From assembly GCF_009689585.1 (NCBI RefSeq), contig NZ_AP018694.1:5571501-5635500 (forward strand): a DNA stretch of 64,000 bases, written 5' to 3'. The notes beneath the pieces were generated by a model. It was not told where the DNA came from and ran no database searches. It saw only the letters and a program-made list of their open reading frames with translations. The DNA comes from Aquipluma nitroreducens. GTDB taxonomy: Bacteria > Bacteroidota > Bacteroidia > Bacteroidales > Prolixibacteraceae. How positions within the stretch are numbered: position 1 is the stretch's first letter; each line of letters opens with the position of its first letter. Position numbers and translations under genes: made by a program. Positions 20,685 to 27,240 of this stretch are shown here, piece after piece.

Positions 20685-20885
20685 GCGATTATTGTGCTTT
20701 TCGTGGGTAAAATGTAAATAAGATTTTAACAATGTAATGTTCGTAAAATCAACAATTTAAAAGTAATGCCTGACTTTTATTGTGTATTTTTGAATAAAGA
20801 AAATGAGATTGAGTATGACAGTACCAACTTTTAGGAATACTTTTTGTTATTTTGGATGCGTAACTTTATTAATGTGACGAAGCAT

Positions 20886-23414
20886 ATGGATTCACAATTT
20901 TCACCACGAATTAAAGATGTTCTTTCATACAGCCGGGAGGAAGCTATCCGCCTGGGGAATGAGAGCATTGGATTAGAACATATTTTCCTCGGAATCCTTA
21001 GAGATGGAGAAGGCGTAGCTATTGAGATTCTCTCTAACCTTAGTGTCAATTTGTCCGAAATAAAACAATCGATCGAAGAAAAACTAAGAACTGGCAAGGA
21101 TATCGACTCACAGGCCTCTGTGCAATTATTAAAATCAGCTGAAAAAGCTTTGAAGCTTGTTTATTTGGAAGCACGTGCTTTCAACAGTCCCACTATAAAT
21201 ACGGGTCATCTTCTCCTCGCCTTAATTAAGGATAAGGATAGCATGATCAGTAATATTCTGAGCGAGTACCACATCAATTATTATATTTTGAAATCAAGAT
21301 TGGAAGATTATAAGAATCCGGAAGCAAAATCGGACTTCGATGATGAAGATTCAGATGATGATAGTTTCTCCAAATCAGCTGGAGGAGCTGCATCATCATC
21401 ATCTGCCAAAAAGCCTGTAAACCCAAAATCAGACACACCTGTGCTTGATAATTTTGGCGTTGATATTACCAAAGCCGCTGAAGAAAATAATCTGGATCCG
21501 ATTGTTGGAAGGGAACGTGAAATTGAGCGATTAGCTCAAATATTATCGCGAAGAAAGAAAAACAATCCAATTCTGATTGGTGAACCTGGTGTCGGTAAAT
21601 CGGCTATTGCTGAAGGACTTGCTTTGCGGATTGTTCAGAAAAAAGTATCAAGAATTCTCTTTGATAAAAGGGTTGTCAGTTTGGATATCGCTTCAATTGT
21701 TGCAGGCACCAAATATCGGGGACAATTCGAAGAACGTATGAAGGCTATTCTGAACGAGTTATCGAAAGTCAGCAATGTTATTTTGTTTATCGACGAAATT
21801 CATACCATCGTTGGTGCCGGAGGTGCAACAGGTTCGCTTGATGCTGCCAACATGCTAAAACCAGCTTTGGCACGTGGCGAAATTCAGTGTATTGGAGCCA
21901 CTACCCTCGACGAATACCGCCAGCAGATTGAAAAAGATGGCGCTTTGGAAAGAAGATTTCAGAAAATAATGGTTGAGCCAACTTCTGTTGATGAGACAAT
22001 TGAAATTCTGAATAATATAAAATCGAGGTATGAAGATCATCACAATGTAATTTTTACGCCAGAAGCGATTGAAGCCTGCGTAAAATTAACAGCCAGGTAT
22101 ATTCCCGACCGTTTTTTACCGGATAAAGCAATTGATGCCCTCGACGAATCAGGTTCGCGCGTACATATTTCAAACATCAATGTTCCGGATCGAATCGTAA
22201 AACTGGAAGAGAAGATAGAGAAAACAAAAGAGGAAAAGATCAAAGCTGTAAAAAGTCAGAACTTTGAACTAGCTGCCAATCACCGCGATAAAGAAAAAAG
22301 CCTGTTACAGTTGCTTGAGCAGGAAAAAGAAGAGTGGGAAAAAGAACTGATCAGCCATCGAGAAACGGTAACCGAAGAAAAGGTTGCTGAAGTGGTTGCC
22401 ATGATGTCGGGAGTACCTGTTCAGCGCATTGCGCAGGCTGAAGGAAAACGATTGATGGATATGGGCAAACAGATTAAGGGAAGCGTGGTTGGACAGGACG
22501 AAGCAATTGTTAAGATTGTAAAGGCCATACAACGAAACCGTGCAGGACTTAAAGACCCCAATAAACCAATTGGCTCATTTGTTTTTCTTGGACCTACTGG
22601 TGTTGGTAAAACACAATTAGCTAAAGTTTTAGCTAAATACTTATTCGACAGCATCGATTCTTTGATTAGAGTTGACATGAGCGAATACATGGAGAAATTT
22701 TCTGTTTCCAGATTGGTTGGTGCGCCTCCGGGGTATGTTGGTTACGAAGAAGGTGGACAGTTGACTGAAAAAGTCAGGAGAAAACCCTATTGTGTCGTAC
22801 TTTTAGATGAAATTGAAAAAGCCCATCCCGATGTTTTCCATTTATTACTTCAGGTTTTAGACGAAGGAAGGTTAACTGACAGCTTGGGGCGTAGTATCGA
22901 TTTCAAAAACACGATAATTATCATGACCTCAAATATTGGCTCACGTCAATTATCGGAGTTCGGTCGTGGAGTTGGCTTCACCACACAAAATAAGAGTGTT
23001 GATGATGGAGAAAATTCGAAATACATCGTTGAAAAGGCATTAAAGAAAGCATTTGCCCCTGAATTTCTGAATCGTATTGATGATGTGATCATGTTTAACC
23101 CATTAACGAAAGAACATATTCACGAAATTATTGATATTGAATTAAAGGGTTTGTATGAACGTGTTAACTCGCTGAATTACAAATTAAAAATTTCAACTGC
23201 AGCCAAAGACTTTATAGCTGACAAAGGATACGACGCTCAATTTGGAGCAAGGCCATTGAAGCGGGCAATACAAAAATATCTGGAAGATGAAATGGCTGAA
23301 GTGATTATTAGAGCTTCAGTTGTTGAAGGAGATACTATTTCTGTAGGTTTCGACAAGAAGACTGAAAAGATAAAAATCAAGATTTTATCTACACTTCAAA
23401 AAAAAATAAAATAG
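20886..23414 (+). CDS. clpC: ATP-dependent Clp protease ATPase subunit ClpC
   Basis: The ATG at 20886 gives an 842-residue protein beginning [20 protein letters not shown], the standard ClpC start; a TTG 42 nt upstream is less likely. It has an N-terminal double Clp repeat (residues 1-145), a Ser/Asp-rich linker, AAA+ D1 with Walker [10 protein letters not shown] and Walker B LFIDEIHT, a UVR-like coiled middle domain ([19 protein letters not shown]) and AAA+ D2 with GPTGVGKTQ and [12 protein letters not shown]. It unfolds substrates for ClpP. The last 60 nt are copied beyond the downstream insertion element. Confidence 0.94.
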
Positions 23415-23421
23415 AAATTCC

Positions 23422-23465
23422 AATAAAACAGAAGACCAGGTTTAAGCCTGGTCTTCTGTTTTATT
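23422..23465. terminator. Bidirectional terminator downstream of clpC
   Basis: A perfect 19-bp stem (AATAAAACAGAAGACCAGG with its complement) has a 6-nt loop and A/T-rich sides on both strands. In the opposite direction the stem encodes the last phosphatase residues KTEDQA. Confidence 0.92.
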
Positions 23466-23617
23466 GAGGTACTTTAAAGCTAAAAGCGAAATATCATCAG
23501 CTTGATTAGACTGTCCTTCAAATATCAGAATGCTTTTTACTAATCTTTCAACAGCCTCTTCAGCGGTTAAATCAGTCAGGTTCTGAATGTTATTTTCCAA
23601 TCGATGAGTTCCGTAAT
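23442..23617 (-). pseudogene. Duplicated 3' fragment of the SpoIIE-type phosphatase gene
   Basis: The frame encodes YGTHRLENN through YLNKTEDQA, identical to the last 58 residues of the intact phosphatase at 25336-27240. It was left behind by the 263-bp duplication and has no promoter or catalytic domain of its own. A chimeric frame that starts inside the insertion element at 23654 (MESATALNVTSQD) reads into it, but nothing suggests that this makes a functional protein. Confidence 0.88.
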
Positions 23618-25248
23618 CCTGACTTGTGACATTTAGTGCGGTAGCAGATTCCATTTGGTAATAAGGTTTGCAAGTTGGCTATTCATGATTTCCTTTGTGG
23701 GGGATCGGAAGACAAATGTTTGTTTGGTCAATCGGTCTTGAATATGGGTTTCTGTTATGTTCCAGACAAGGAACCGGATTTCCCTCAATGATAATTTGGT
23801 GATTATTTCCAGGTATTTTTCTGCTATCAGAGCGACAAAACAAATCAGTACGTGAGCCTTGATCGCTTCTTGTTTTTGATGGTATATTGGGCGGGTTTGC
23901 AAATCAAACTTACTCATGCGGAACGATTGTTCAATGTGCCAGAGCTGGTGGTAACGGTCTATGACCATTTGGTTGGACAGTTGTTGTTCGGGCAAGTTGG
24001 TGCAATACCCCTTAATTCCAAGCAACAGCCTCCTTTTTTCTATCAATGTCGTGTTGAGTTCTATTTTTTCTTTAGTAACCTTCCTGACAAATTGAGCCTT
24101 CACTTTCAGTGACTGCTTTGCCACCAGCTCTTCGGCTTTTTGAACAAGCTTGTTTAGCTCGTTCAATTCCTTTTTATACCGTTTGAGTGAAAAATCGCAC
24201 ACCAAATAACCGTATCGCGATGGAAAGCGGGCTATGGCACCGTGTTTCCCGTTCAATGTTGCATGGATTTGTTTTACCAATCCAAGTTCCGCATTGGCCA
24301 GCCGTGCACCAACAATGTACGATAGTTTCTTTTCCCTGAGTTCGGCAAGCCTTTCTTCATCCAGCATTGCGGCATCGGCTACAATAATTGGCCGTGTCTG
24401 CGGGTGGGCTGAGGTAAACGTTTCCACAACCGGGAGCATTGTCTTTCCTTCGAATGTGTTGCCTGCAAAAACCTGATACGACAGTGGAAACCCTGTTTGT
24501 GTTACCAGCAGCCCGATGACAATTTGGGGTTGCTGTGACTTGTTGTCCTTTGAGAACCCTTGTATTTTAAACTCATCGGCCTTAAACGACTCGAAATACA
24601 ATGTGGTAACATCGTACAGCACAAAATAGAAAGGTTCATTGAACTTCTGTTGTGCCACCCTGTAAGCACATTGCTCAATATCTGCCTTGTATGCTGACAA
24701 CTTTGGAATATTGCGGTAAATCCGTTGAGAATATTTAATGCCGAAGTAATATCCCAGCAGTTCAACAGAGCGGAGTTTTGAAGCAGGCTCGATAAGGCGC
24801 ATAATGGCCAGATCAAGCAACAGGCGGGGAAGATGGGATAAACCGCATTCATCGAAACAGCCCATGAAGAACCGAAAAGCAAAGTGGTGCGTCACCCCAA
24901 TGCATTCGCCCCTGTCTACAACTAAAAGTTTTTGTTTTTGGGCAGGGAACAACGATAACTGGGCGGTTTGTTCATCGATCCATTCCAATGCCCTTTGCCT
25001 CAAAACAGCCTCTTCTATCTGGTCTTTGGCGCTACCAATATGTTTGCCTACAATCGATCTGTGACCAACATACCTGACAACCTGAACCGCAACAGATCCC
25101 GACTTAGTTTTGACTTTTCGTACTGAATACATACCGCAAAATTAGGCGTTAGTGCGGTGAAATCAATAAATATTAATTGCTAAATTGTTAATAATGTGGA
25201 ATTTAAAAATTGATCTCTGTGGAAAAATCAAAAGTGTCACAAGTCAGG
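23618..25248. mobile_element. IS1634-family insertion sequence, 1631 bp
   Basis: The element has one transposase gene and terminal inverted repeats: CCTGACTTGTGACA at 23618-23631 and its reverse complement at 25235-25248, 14 bp perfect. It is flanked by the 263-bp direct repeats 23355-23617 and 25249-25511. IS1634 itself was named from Mycoplasma mycoides for making long, variable-length direct repeats, so the flank fits the family. One mismatch between the flanks suggests a fairly recent insertion. Confidence 0.93.
23633..25132 (-). CDS. IS1634-family DDE transposase
   Basis: This 499-residue transposase starts MYSVRKVKTKSGSVAVQVVR, the usual N-terminus of this family. The DDE catalytic domain is visible as LYDVTTLYFES (first Asp), PIIVADAAMLDEE (second Asp) and the C-terminal LWHIEQSFRMSKFDLQTRP, which carries the Glu in a YREK-like signature. 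The frame is complete and uninterrupted, so the element may still be active. The stop codon lies 15 nt from the left terminus. Confidence 0.93.
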   Translation of the reverse strand: MYSVRKVKTKSGSVAVQVVRYVGHRSIVGKHIGSAKDQIEEAVLRQRALEWIDEQTAQLSLFPAQKQKLLVVDRGECIGVTHHFAFRFFMGCFDECGLSHLPRLLLDLAIMRLIEPASKLRSVELLGYYFGIKYSQRIYRNIPKLSAYKADIEQCAYRVAQQKFNEPFYFVLYDVTTLYFESFKADEFKIQGFSKDNKSQQPQIVIGLLVTQTGFPLSYQVFAGNTFEGKTMLPVVETFTSAHPQTRPIIVADAAMLDEERLAELREKKLSYIVGARLANAELGLVKQIHATLNGKHGAIARFPSRYGYLVCDFSLKRYKKELNELNKLVQKAEELVAKQSLKVKAQFVRKVTKEKIELNTTLIEKRRLLLGIKGYCTNLPEQQLSNQMVIDRYHQLWHIEQSFRMSKFDLQTRPIYHQKQEAIKAHVLICFVALIAEKYLEIITKLSLREIRFLVWNITETHIQDRLTKQTFVFRSPTKEIMNSQLANLITKWNLLPH

Positions 25249-25511
25249 AAGAAGACTGAAAAGATAAAAATCAAGATTTTATCTACACTTCAAAAAAAAA
25301 TAAAATAGAAATTCCAATAAAACAGAAGACCAGGTTTAAGCCTGGTCTTCTGTTTTATTGAGGTACTTTAAAGCTAAAAGCGAAATATCATCAGCTTGAT
25401 TAGACTGTCCTTCAAATATCAGAATGCTTTTTACTAATCTTTCAACAGCCTCTTCTGCGGTTAAATCAGTCAGGTTCTGAATGTTATTTTCCAATCGATG
25501 AGTTCCGTAAT
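25249..25511. repeat. Right copy of the 263-bp duplication
   Basis: This copy repeats 23355-23617 with one mismatch and starts at the base after the right inverted repeat of the insertion element. It carries the true 3' end of the phosphatase gene and a stranded copy of the last 60 nt of clpC (25249-25308). Confidence 0.93.
25316..25359 (-). terminator. Terminator of the SpoIIE-type phosphatase gene (duplicated copy)
   Basis: This is the second copy of the 19-bp perfect hairpin found after clpC. The phosphatase stop codon lies in its loop, so the stem is partly coding. Confidence 0.9.
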
Positions 25512-27240
25512 GTTTCTTGTTAGAATCTCTTGAATCAATTACCCCATCAGTATATAAAATCAACAAATCATTCATCCTAAGTTCGATACTACTGCTTTTA
25601 TATTTTTTATCCTTATATATTCCAAGAGGTAAACCATGACTCTTTGATAACGTTTGTAAAGTACCATCAGCATGTAGTATGTATGGGAAATTATGTGCTG
25701 CATTGCAGTAATCCAATAATCCTGAACGAATATCAAGTATTCCGAGAAAAAGGGTAACAAAATATTGATTCGAATTTCGGTCACTCAATTCGTTATTGAC
25801 ACGCCTGACAATATCTTTAGATGATAATATTTTAGCATGAGTTTTTATGAGTGTGCTGGTAATAGCCATAAAAAGCGAGGCTGGAATTCCTTTTCCGGAG
25901 ACATCACCAATCGCCACTAACAAATGATTTTTATCGATGAAAAAATAATCGTACAAATCTCCACCGATAGTTTCAGCTGGCTTTAGCATGGCGTAAAGAT
26001 CTATCTCTGGATATTCCAGAAATGTTGGTTTTCCGGAAGGAACAATATTTAATTGTATCTCTTGAGCTGATTTTAAATCTTTTTCAAATTTGATTTTATC
26101 ACTAGCCGTTTTCTTTTGATCCTTTATTAGCAATCCATACTTTTCCTGCCAATCTTCCAAACTATTTACAAGCATCATAATTTCATTCTTCGATTCTTGT
26201 TCTCTATCCGCAGAAGAGGTAAACAGTTGAATTGCATGCGTAATTCGAACCAGTGGACCGAGCATCTTCTTGAATACGATAATATTAATCAGAAATAAAA
26301 GAAGAATTCCAAAAACTGAAACTACAATAATTTTTAGAAATATTTCGTGAAGTTCTTTAAACAGTTCCTGCTCAGGAATTACAATAATTACACTCCAGCC
26401 TGAATTGGTGATGGGGGCATGGTAAAACCAGGCAGCCTGATTATTCAGATATTCAGAAATGCCAAAACCAGCTCCACTCCTGCCCTGTTTGATTTCCGAT
26501 TCGATTTCTTGACTATTAGCTTTAAAAATAGTCGAAGTTTTTTCAAAAATATTATGCTGAAGAATCCAGTCAGAGCGCGGATGTGAGATGTAATTACCCA
26601 ATTGGTCCACCATAAAAATATAACCTTTCTCTCCTATTCGAATTTTGGAGAGCATTTGCTTCATCGCATTTAACGAAATCCCGCATGAAACAACCCCGGC
26701 AATCTGATTGCTTTCAGGATAATATATTGGCAATTTGTATGAAACAAATAAATGTGAAGAATCCGTTTTGGAATATGATGGGCTAGTCCAAACTCCTTGG
26801 CTTAATTTTGTATTTCCAGATTTCAGATCGCGAATAAATTGATCAGTAGCTAAACTATCAGGATTACAGCTATCCTGACCTTCCTTGCTTGAAAAAAAAC
26901 TCAAAAGATGTTTTGTGCTCTTTTCAATTAACTGAACATGAATACATTCAATAATACTATTAGATTTGAGAACCTGCCGAAGAAAAAGATCCAGATCGTT
27001 ATTCCTATAATAATATAAAGCCTGGGCTGATACGTTTCGTGCAATCTCTTCGGTTCCTACAGAAACTCTGGAAATCCTTGAAATGACCATATTACTCTGA
27101 TTAACAGCGCCATCTTCAATTTTCTTTACCAACACCTCCTTACTTAAGTGATAATTGATGTATACTATAGATGCGATAATAACAATCGCAATGGTAGTTA
27201 TCTGTGAATTTAAAAGATAGGAGATTCCTCGCTGCTTCAT
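25336..27240 (-). CDS. Membrane sensor with Cache domain and SpoIIE/PP2C serine phosphatase domain
   Basis: The 634-residue protein has a membrane helix at about residues 10-28, an extracytoplasmic Cache sensor (to about 295; MKQMLSKIRIGEKGYIFMVD is typical), a second helix (about 302-325), a HAMP-like linker and helical segment, and a C-terminal PP2C domain. The metal-binding Asp motifs are GGDLYDYF, IGDVSGKGIPASLF, LYTDGVIDS and ADDISLLAL. Such proteins dephosphorylate anti-sigma-factor antagonists in partner-switching. No partner gene lies next to it. The gene is intact despite the adjacent insertion. Confidence 0.92.
   Translation of the reverse strand: MKQRGISYLLNSQITTIAIVIIASIVYINYHLSKEVLVKKIEDGAVNQSNMVISRISRVSVGTEEIARNVSAQALYYYRNNDLDLFLRQVLKSNSIIECIHVQLIEKSTKHLLSFFSSKEGQDSCNPDSLATDQFIRDLKSGNTKLSQGVWTSPSYSKTDSSHLFVSYKLPIYYPESNQIAGVVSCGISLNAMKQMLSKIRIGEKGYIFMVDQLGNYISHPRSDWILQHNIFEKTSTIFKANSQEIESEIKQGRSGAGFGISEYLNNQAAWFYHAPITNSGWSVIIVIPEQELFKELHEIFLKIIVVSVFGILLLFLINIIVFKKMLGPLVRITHAIQLFTSSADREQESKNEIMMLVNSLEDWQEKYGLLIKDQKKTASDKIKFEKDLKSAQEIQLNIVPSGKPTFLEYPEIDLYAMLKPAETIGGDLYDYFFIDKNHLLVAIGDVSGKGIPASLFMAITSTLIKTHAKILSSKDIVRRVNNELSDRNSNQYFVTLFLGILDIRSGLLDYCNAAHNFPYILHADGTLQTLSKSHGLPLGIYKDKKYKSSSIELRMNDLLILYTDGVIDSRDSNKKHYGTHRLENNIQNLTDLTAEEAVERLVKSILIFEGQSNQADDISLLALKYLNKTEDQA

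Follow-up and report, generated by a model that had tools for sequence, protein, structure and literature searches.

A long, variable target duplication flanks an IS1634-family insertion between convergent genes of Aquipluma nitroreducens

The stretch of DNA analysed here (the window) comprises 64,000 nucleotides of the Aquipluma nitroreducens genome (contig NZ_AP018694.1, positions 5,571,501 to 5,635,500), in which an insertion sequence (IS) of 1631 bp separates two convergent genes, clpC and the gene for a SpoIIE-type phosphatase (Table 1). An initial annotation had described the element as bearing 14-bp terminal inverted repeats and abutting two 263-bp direct repeats with one mismatch, and alignment of the two repeats confirmed this, with 262 of 263 positions identical. 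The sole mismatch lies at offset 207 (A in the left copy, T in the right); both repeats abut the element directly, and identity stops at both outer limits with no extension on either side. The duplicated segment takes in the final 60 nt of clpC and, from the 3' end of the phosphatase gene, 176 nt, together with a strong hairpin. Both genes are whole although the ends of the element fall in coding sequence, because the duplication leaves each of them with a terminal segment of its own; open reading frame (ORF) and domain evidence bear out the annotated duplication of both gene ends. The hairpin is foldable on either strand (-29 and -27.8 kcal/mol, z about -9.5), but in a simple scan only the minus strand showed a terminator-like pattern, so that the shared terminator of the initial annotation is no more than likely.

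Table 1. Features of the insertion site, in window coordinates
Feature	Position	Strand	Evidence or remark
IS1634-family insertion sequence, 1631 bp	23618..25248	-	nine 100% identical genome copies
Terminal inverted repeat, 14 bp	23618..23631	+	14/14 match with other end
Terminal inverted repeat, 14 bp	25235..25248	-	14/14 match with other end
DDE transposase, 499 aa; D174, D253, E401	23633..25132	-	Pfam DDE_Tnp_1, NCBIfam IS1634
QLSLF, residues 58-62, putative clamp-binding site fitting the beta-sliding-clamp-binding consensus	24947..24961	-	motif match
Left copy of 263-bp target duplication	23355..23617	.	262/263 identical to right copy; single copy in relatives; derived base at mismatch
Right copy of 263-bp target duplication	25249..25511	.	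262/263 identical to left copy; base at mismatch same as G017
clpC, complete; final 60 nt within left copy	20844..23414	+	
SpoIIE-type phosphatase with Cache domain, complete; final 176 nt within right copy	25336..27240	-	
Terminator-like hairpin, left copy	23421..23466	-	
Terminator-like hairpin, right copy	25315..25360	-	

The transposase scored 315.1 bits against the IS1634 model of NCBIfam (NF033559, cut-off 100), in agreement with the annotated family, and 37.2 bits against the IS4 model, below its cut-off of 115. Its catalytic triad is conserved among 104 related rows (D174 and D253 in 99%, E401 in 98%), and the spacers of 78 (D174-D253) and 147 residues (D253-E401) include the long N3-C1 spacer of the IS1634 family. 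The YREK region reads Y394, L397, E401 and K408, L standing in place of the R that the family usually lacks; L occupies this position in 98% of the same rows. The length of 1631 bp and the CCTGACTT ends likewise agree with the published 1500-2000 bp and C-----YT. In its target repeats, however, the element departs from the 5-6 bp expected of the family: its nine copies in the genome have repeats of 9-263 bp, and such variation between copies of one element characterizes the long-repeat type. Membership of the IS4 family proper was rejected on account of the L for R in YREK, repeats of 9-263 bp and not about one helix turn, and the sub-threshold score. A sequence search of solved structures with the transposase gave one match only (E 0.13), nothing useful.

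In relatives the 263-bp segment is single and the site empty. The phosphatase or a relative was found in 22 of 23 same-genus genomes searched (own included), and the clpC end, the segment and the phosphatase occur together in 17 loci of the other genomes, with the segment once in each; extra matches to the segment at these loci are its own palindrome on the opposite strand. The element itself had no match in any of the searched phosphatase loci of other genomes. In genome G017 (locus L067) the three blocks abut base for base, with identities of 93.1, 90.9 and 89.5%, and in G003 (L068) they abut with 250 bp in place of 263; one locus (L081) has clpC and the phosphatase with no match to the segment. 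The base at the mismatch is T in G017, as in the right copy, and therefore the left copy is the changed one. For a second insertion, that with a 109-bp repeat, the corresponding locus of the nearest relative, G017 (L271), has the target sequence once and lacks the element. Empty sites, examined at two of the nine places, thus reveal a true target duplication at both, as had been proposed.

The 5.71-Mb genome (a single contig, G000) contains nine full copies of the element, all 100% identical, each at a different site, with duplications of 263, 188, 109, 56, 48, 31, 29, 16 and 9 bp. A search for further copies, suggested with the initial annotation, therefore did not return short repeats only. 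Every one of the nine repeats starts with A and finishes with T, so that the base joined to the element is A at 18 of 18 ends (chance 4e-10 at the local A frequency). The element looks recently active. Mismatches within the duplications are confined to one in the 263 bp and two adjacent ones in the 109 bp. The copies at these two sites (L001 and L008) contribute three differing bases, two of them adjacent, in 749 bp, while the nine elements are identical; given equal rates, the probability of this is 0.0008 for three independent changes and about 0.009 should the adjacent pair count as a single event. Error-prone fill-in, homogenized element copies or assembly polishing could account for these differences. 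The genome also contains a second, different IS1634-family element (L250, C1 about 4.794-4.796 Mb), whose ends read CCTGTTTT, whose ORF encodes 424 aa and whose repeat measures 76 bp with one mismatch, and a 54-bp remnant (L010, C1:542917-542970) with 79% identity to one end of the nine-copy element.

For a broader view of the repeats we surveyed relatives of the element. Protein searches were run on overlapping sets of genomes: 101 from relatives, 395 from the phylum, 393 from the order and 395 from the class, together with 65 from the genus of G128 and 128 from the order of G230; in the large searches up to three candidates per genome were scored and up to 30 loci kept. Further sources were searches of chosen genomes (20 and 14), a contig scan (25 loci) and 24 regions out of 72 matching plasmid records. 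The resulting table held 119 non-redundant elements whose ends read CC(C/T/G)G, from which 10 rows with spurious ends, fragments or other subgroups were removed (L031, L060, L109, L119, L142, L151, L152, L173, L224 and L243). Among the 109 elements retained, 81 had at least 700 bp of flank on both sides, and 64 of these have flanking repeats at a threshold of at least 5 bp. When left and right flanks of different elements were paired as a control, no repeat was found in 296 of 297 pairings and one of 5 bp in the remaining pairing; the flanking repeats are thus not due to chance. The relatives come from Bacteroidota, Actinomycetota and Campylobacterota, with transposases about 30-100% identical to that in the window, and their repeats range from 5 to 680 bp, the longest belonging to an Aliarcobacter plasmid element (L222); a 629-bp repeat (L130) lies outside the flank limit and is not counted in the 64. 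Together with the nine differing copies in the A. nitroreducens genome, these data support the suggestion that long duplication is general among the relatives.

Short repeats of 5-6 bp were found in four relatives (L041, L227, L228 and L268). Two closely similar elements on the Rhodococcus plasmids pNit and pRJH2 have repeats of 93 bp (L261) and 5 bp (L268), which indicates that one type of transposase can yield either. In a tree of the transposases, all measured repeats of at least 9 bp fall in one group of 105 rows with a Shimodaira-Hasegawa-like approximate likelihood-ratio (SH-aLRT) support of 98; L222 is off this tree, which is a quick one with a midpoint root and long-branch warnings. 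The tree does not establish a single clean origin of the trait, with only two of 16 outgroup rows measured (5 bp each) and four in-group rows at 5-6 bp. Transposases of the outgroup are longer (median 565 aa vs 506 aa), but length alone was rejected as an explanation, since the ORFs of L151 and L153 run to 577 aa and their repeats, in a looser search, measured about 90 and 407 bp.

Repeat lengths were analysed for 66 elements, leaving out L100, for which an 11-bp reading competes with a longer, contig-truncated one; L151, L153 and L222 are not among them. The median is 77.5 and the mean 110 bp, and with fitted parameters the lengths are compatible with an exponential (p 0.70, a rough value) and with a lognormal distribution (p 0.48). 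Among the 57 lengths not exceeding 200 bp no helical phasing was detected. The element is joined to A at 46 of 48 ends in the clade of the window element (23/24 right, 23/24 left) and at 41 of 52 in a second Bacteroidota clade (22/26 right, 19/26 left), whereas in Actinomycetota the joined base tends to T (8/15 at right and at left ends, 16/30). Because the preference is alike at left and right ends, it points to the transposase, not repair, as the maker of both junctions. Base composition was also considered. All nine duplications in the A. nitroreducens genome have a lower GC content than their surroundings; over 56 sites, however, no difference was seen between the duplicated core and the adjacent DNA (p 0.61), though the core differs from DNA further out (p 0.013), and melting of an AT-rich target was rejected as an explanation.

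The complete genome G221 has four copies, of which two (L205 and L208, at C1 about 2.06 and 2.01 Mb) lie in opposite orientation and lack repeats. Their flanks match crosswise, left to right and right to left, with zero mismatches over 280 and 155 bp. This exchange of flanks is an inversion by recombination between the copies, and the crosswise match shows that all four insertions in that genome produced long repeats. Of the seven full copies in G681, six are flanked by repeats (88-241 bp); for L202, a copy without one, the right flank has 75 bp in common with the right flank of L200, a damaged copy elsewhere.

These data indicate that the duplication in the window almost certainly arose by transposition. 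It is hardly credible that the element inserted at the junction of a pre-existing 263-bp tandem duplication: an empty-site relative already carrying such a duplication was looked for, and none of the 17 same-genus loci has a direct repeat, which refutes this explanation in the searched relatives; moreover, the nine copies carry nine different repeats. Very improbable, too, is a standard 5-6-bp insertion whose repeat was enlarged later by recombination or repair, or one of whose junctions was made by repair. The four relatives with 5-6-bp repeats would suit such later growth, but the repeats end exactly at the element on both sides, and an equal joined-base preference at both ends is unexpected for a repair-made junction. 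Rather, we consider it probable that an IS1634-family, IS1549-like DDE element transposed into the 3' junction of clpC and the phosphatase gene and duplicated 263 bp through loosely coupled transfers. For the mechanism itself, loose coupling of two strand transfers, the case seems evenly balanced. The two 3'-OH ends of the element would attack the two target strands at positions loosely coupled by the transposase, some 5 to several hundred bp apart. The freed target 3' ends would then be extended by host polymerase with strand displacement, and this synthesis would separate and copy the intervening duplex as far as the 5' ends of the element, leaving one copy on each side. With the opposite polarity the free 3' ends would run away from the element, perhaps yielding nothing recoverable, and this would account for the observation of duplications.

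A close rival to loosely coupled transfer, possible rather than probable, is a strictly sequential reaction in which the first end joins, polymerase extends the freed target 3' end while displacing a strand, and the template strand is then joined by the second end where the fork has arrived, such that repeat length is the distance synthesized. It predicts duplications only, a broad range of lengths and absent helical phasing, and the pooled lengths fit an exponential with the mean fitted; lengths in the second Bacteroidota clade are not exponential, however, and the present data leave the order of the two transfers unseparated. Targeting to replication appears improbable. Here the beta clamp would bring the transposase to forks or gaps, where single-stranded or nascent DNA would set the long spacing, and the putative clamp-binding motif QLSLF, with Q..(L/M/I)(F/L) at the same place in 31 of the 32 rows that make up the window's clade, is consistent with this, as is the clamp binding demonstrated for an Acidiphilium member of the family (PMC4549789). 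Yet the motif is absent at that place from the long-repeat actinobacterial rows and many others (44/104 have it), and the Acidiphilium member appears to make 6-bp repeats, which a figure legend terms inverted repeats. Since QxxLF is conserved in the window's clade and not across long-repeat transposases, clamp-driven long duplication was rejected. Several observations weigh against loosely coupled transfer as well. No repeat was found at 17 of the 81 elements; L208 is accounted for by swapping, and at L264 another IS has displaced a match of 83 bp. The remainder, among them cases in draft genomes, may include deletions, also a conceivable outcome of an uncoupled mechanism. In addition, repeat lengths in the second Bacteroidota clade (33-406 bp) deviate from an exponential (p 0.035) and are unlike those of Actinomycetota (p 0.0034), and some control of length by the transposase is therefore likely.

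The initial annotation had further proposed that long duplication offers a way to insert harmlessly between convergent genes. Both genes are indeed whole at the window site, but full sparing of two convergent genes is seen at only this one of the nine sites. The 31-bp duplication (L002) covers the end of one ORF, and four of the nine (L003, L005, L006 and L007) are contained in ORFs with a minimum of 80 codons; among the three of these ORFs compared with Pfam, that at L005 matches Pfam Exo_endo_phos and that at L006 RhuM and Fic, while L003 has no match. At L006 (C1:2281363) the RhuM/Fic-family gene is split despite a 188-bp duplication, and the ORF with the Fic part begins in the end of the element. 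Gene preservation at the window site is thus incidental; the range of harmless positions is widened, but long duplication does not give the impression of serving that end.

Long repeats in this family are not new. The family, first named IS1549, is tabulated with repeats of 5-6 bp, with IS1549 and IS1634 as exceptions whose long variable repeats span 8-514 bp and for which no mechanistic model is reported to have been proposed as of 2008 (PMC2266710). From the tabulated 5-6 bp it follows that the long-repeat trait belongs to only part of the family. IS1634 of Mycoplasma mycoides had been put forward as the known exception; it is one, but IS1549 of Mycobacterium smegmatis is another (PMC2266710). 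Likened by description, both resemble the window element in family and in long variable repeats, IS1634 being the name-giver, but IS1634 is 1872 bp long with 60 copies (PMC1798306) vs 1631 bp and nine here. The mycobacterial relatives found in our survey share CCTGACTT ends and have repeats of 24-124 bp, whereas their proteins are 33-37% identical to that of the window. ISGka5 of Geobacillus and the Acidiphilium member are active IS1634-family elements that differ in having 6-bp repeats (apparently so for the Acidiphilium member, from a figure legend), and the plasmid-borne Geobacillus and Alicyclobacillus relatives measured here differ in having 5-bp repeats and longer transposases. Restriction-modification genes inserted with long target duplication are similar in that long variable duplications were inferred from genome comparison, but the part of that paper available does not link them to a DDE element with inverted repeats (PMC3031569). 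A later paper on long repeats in the IS1634 family was not among the matches listed by our literature search, which covered few subscription journals and is weak evidence of absence.

The window element is a recently active-looking further case of the long-repeat IS1634/IS1549 type; what is new is the breadth of the trait across relatives and the base rule shared by both ends. DDE integration is described in textbooks as having a fixed stagger. We tentatively suggest that a large, cross-phylum clade of DDE transposases performs two-site integration, in which the ends choose target phosphodiesters independently under a one-base rule, up to about 680 bp apart and in no helical register. If true, this would break the usual rule that the stagger is fixed by the strand-transfer complex. 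The long duplications also record history, as in the inversion revealed between two copies in G221. Across many different relatives the exception occurs regularly, and the length distribution, the two-ended base rule and the nine-copy element make the question approachable with purified transposase.

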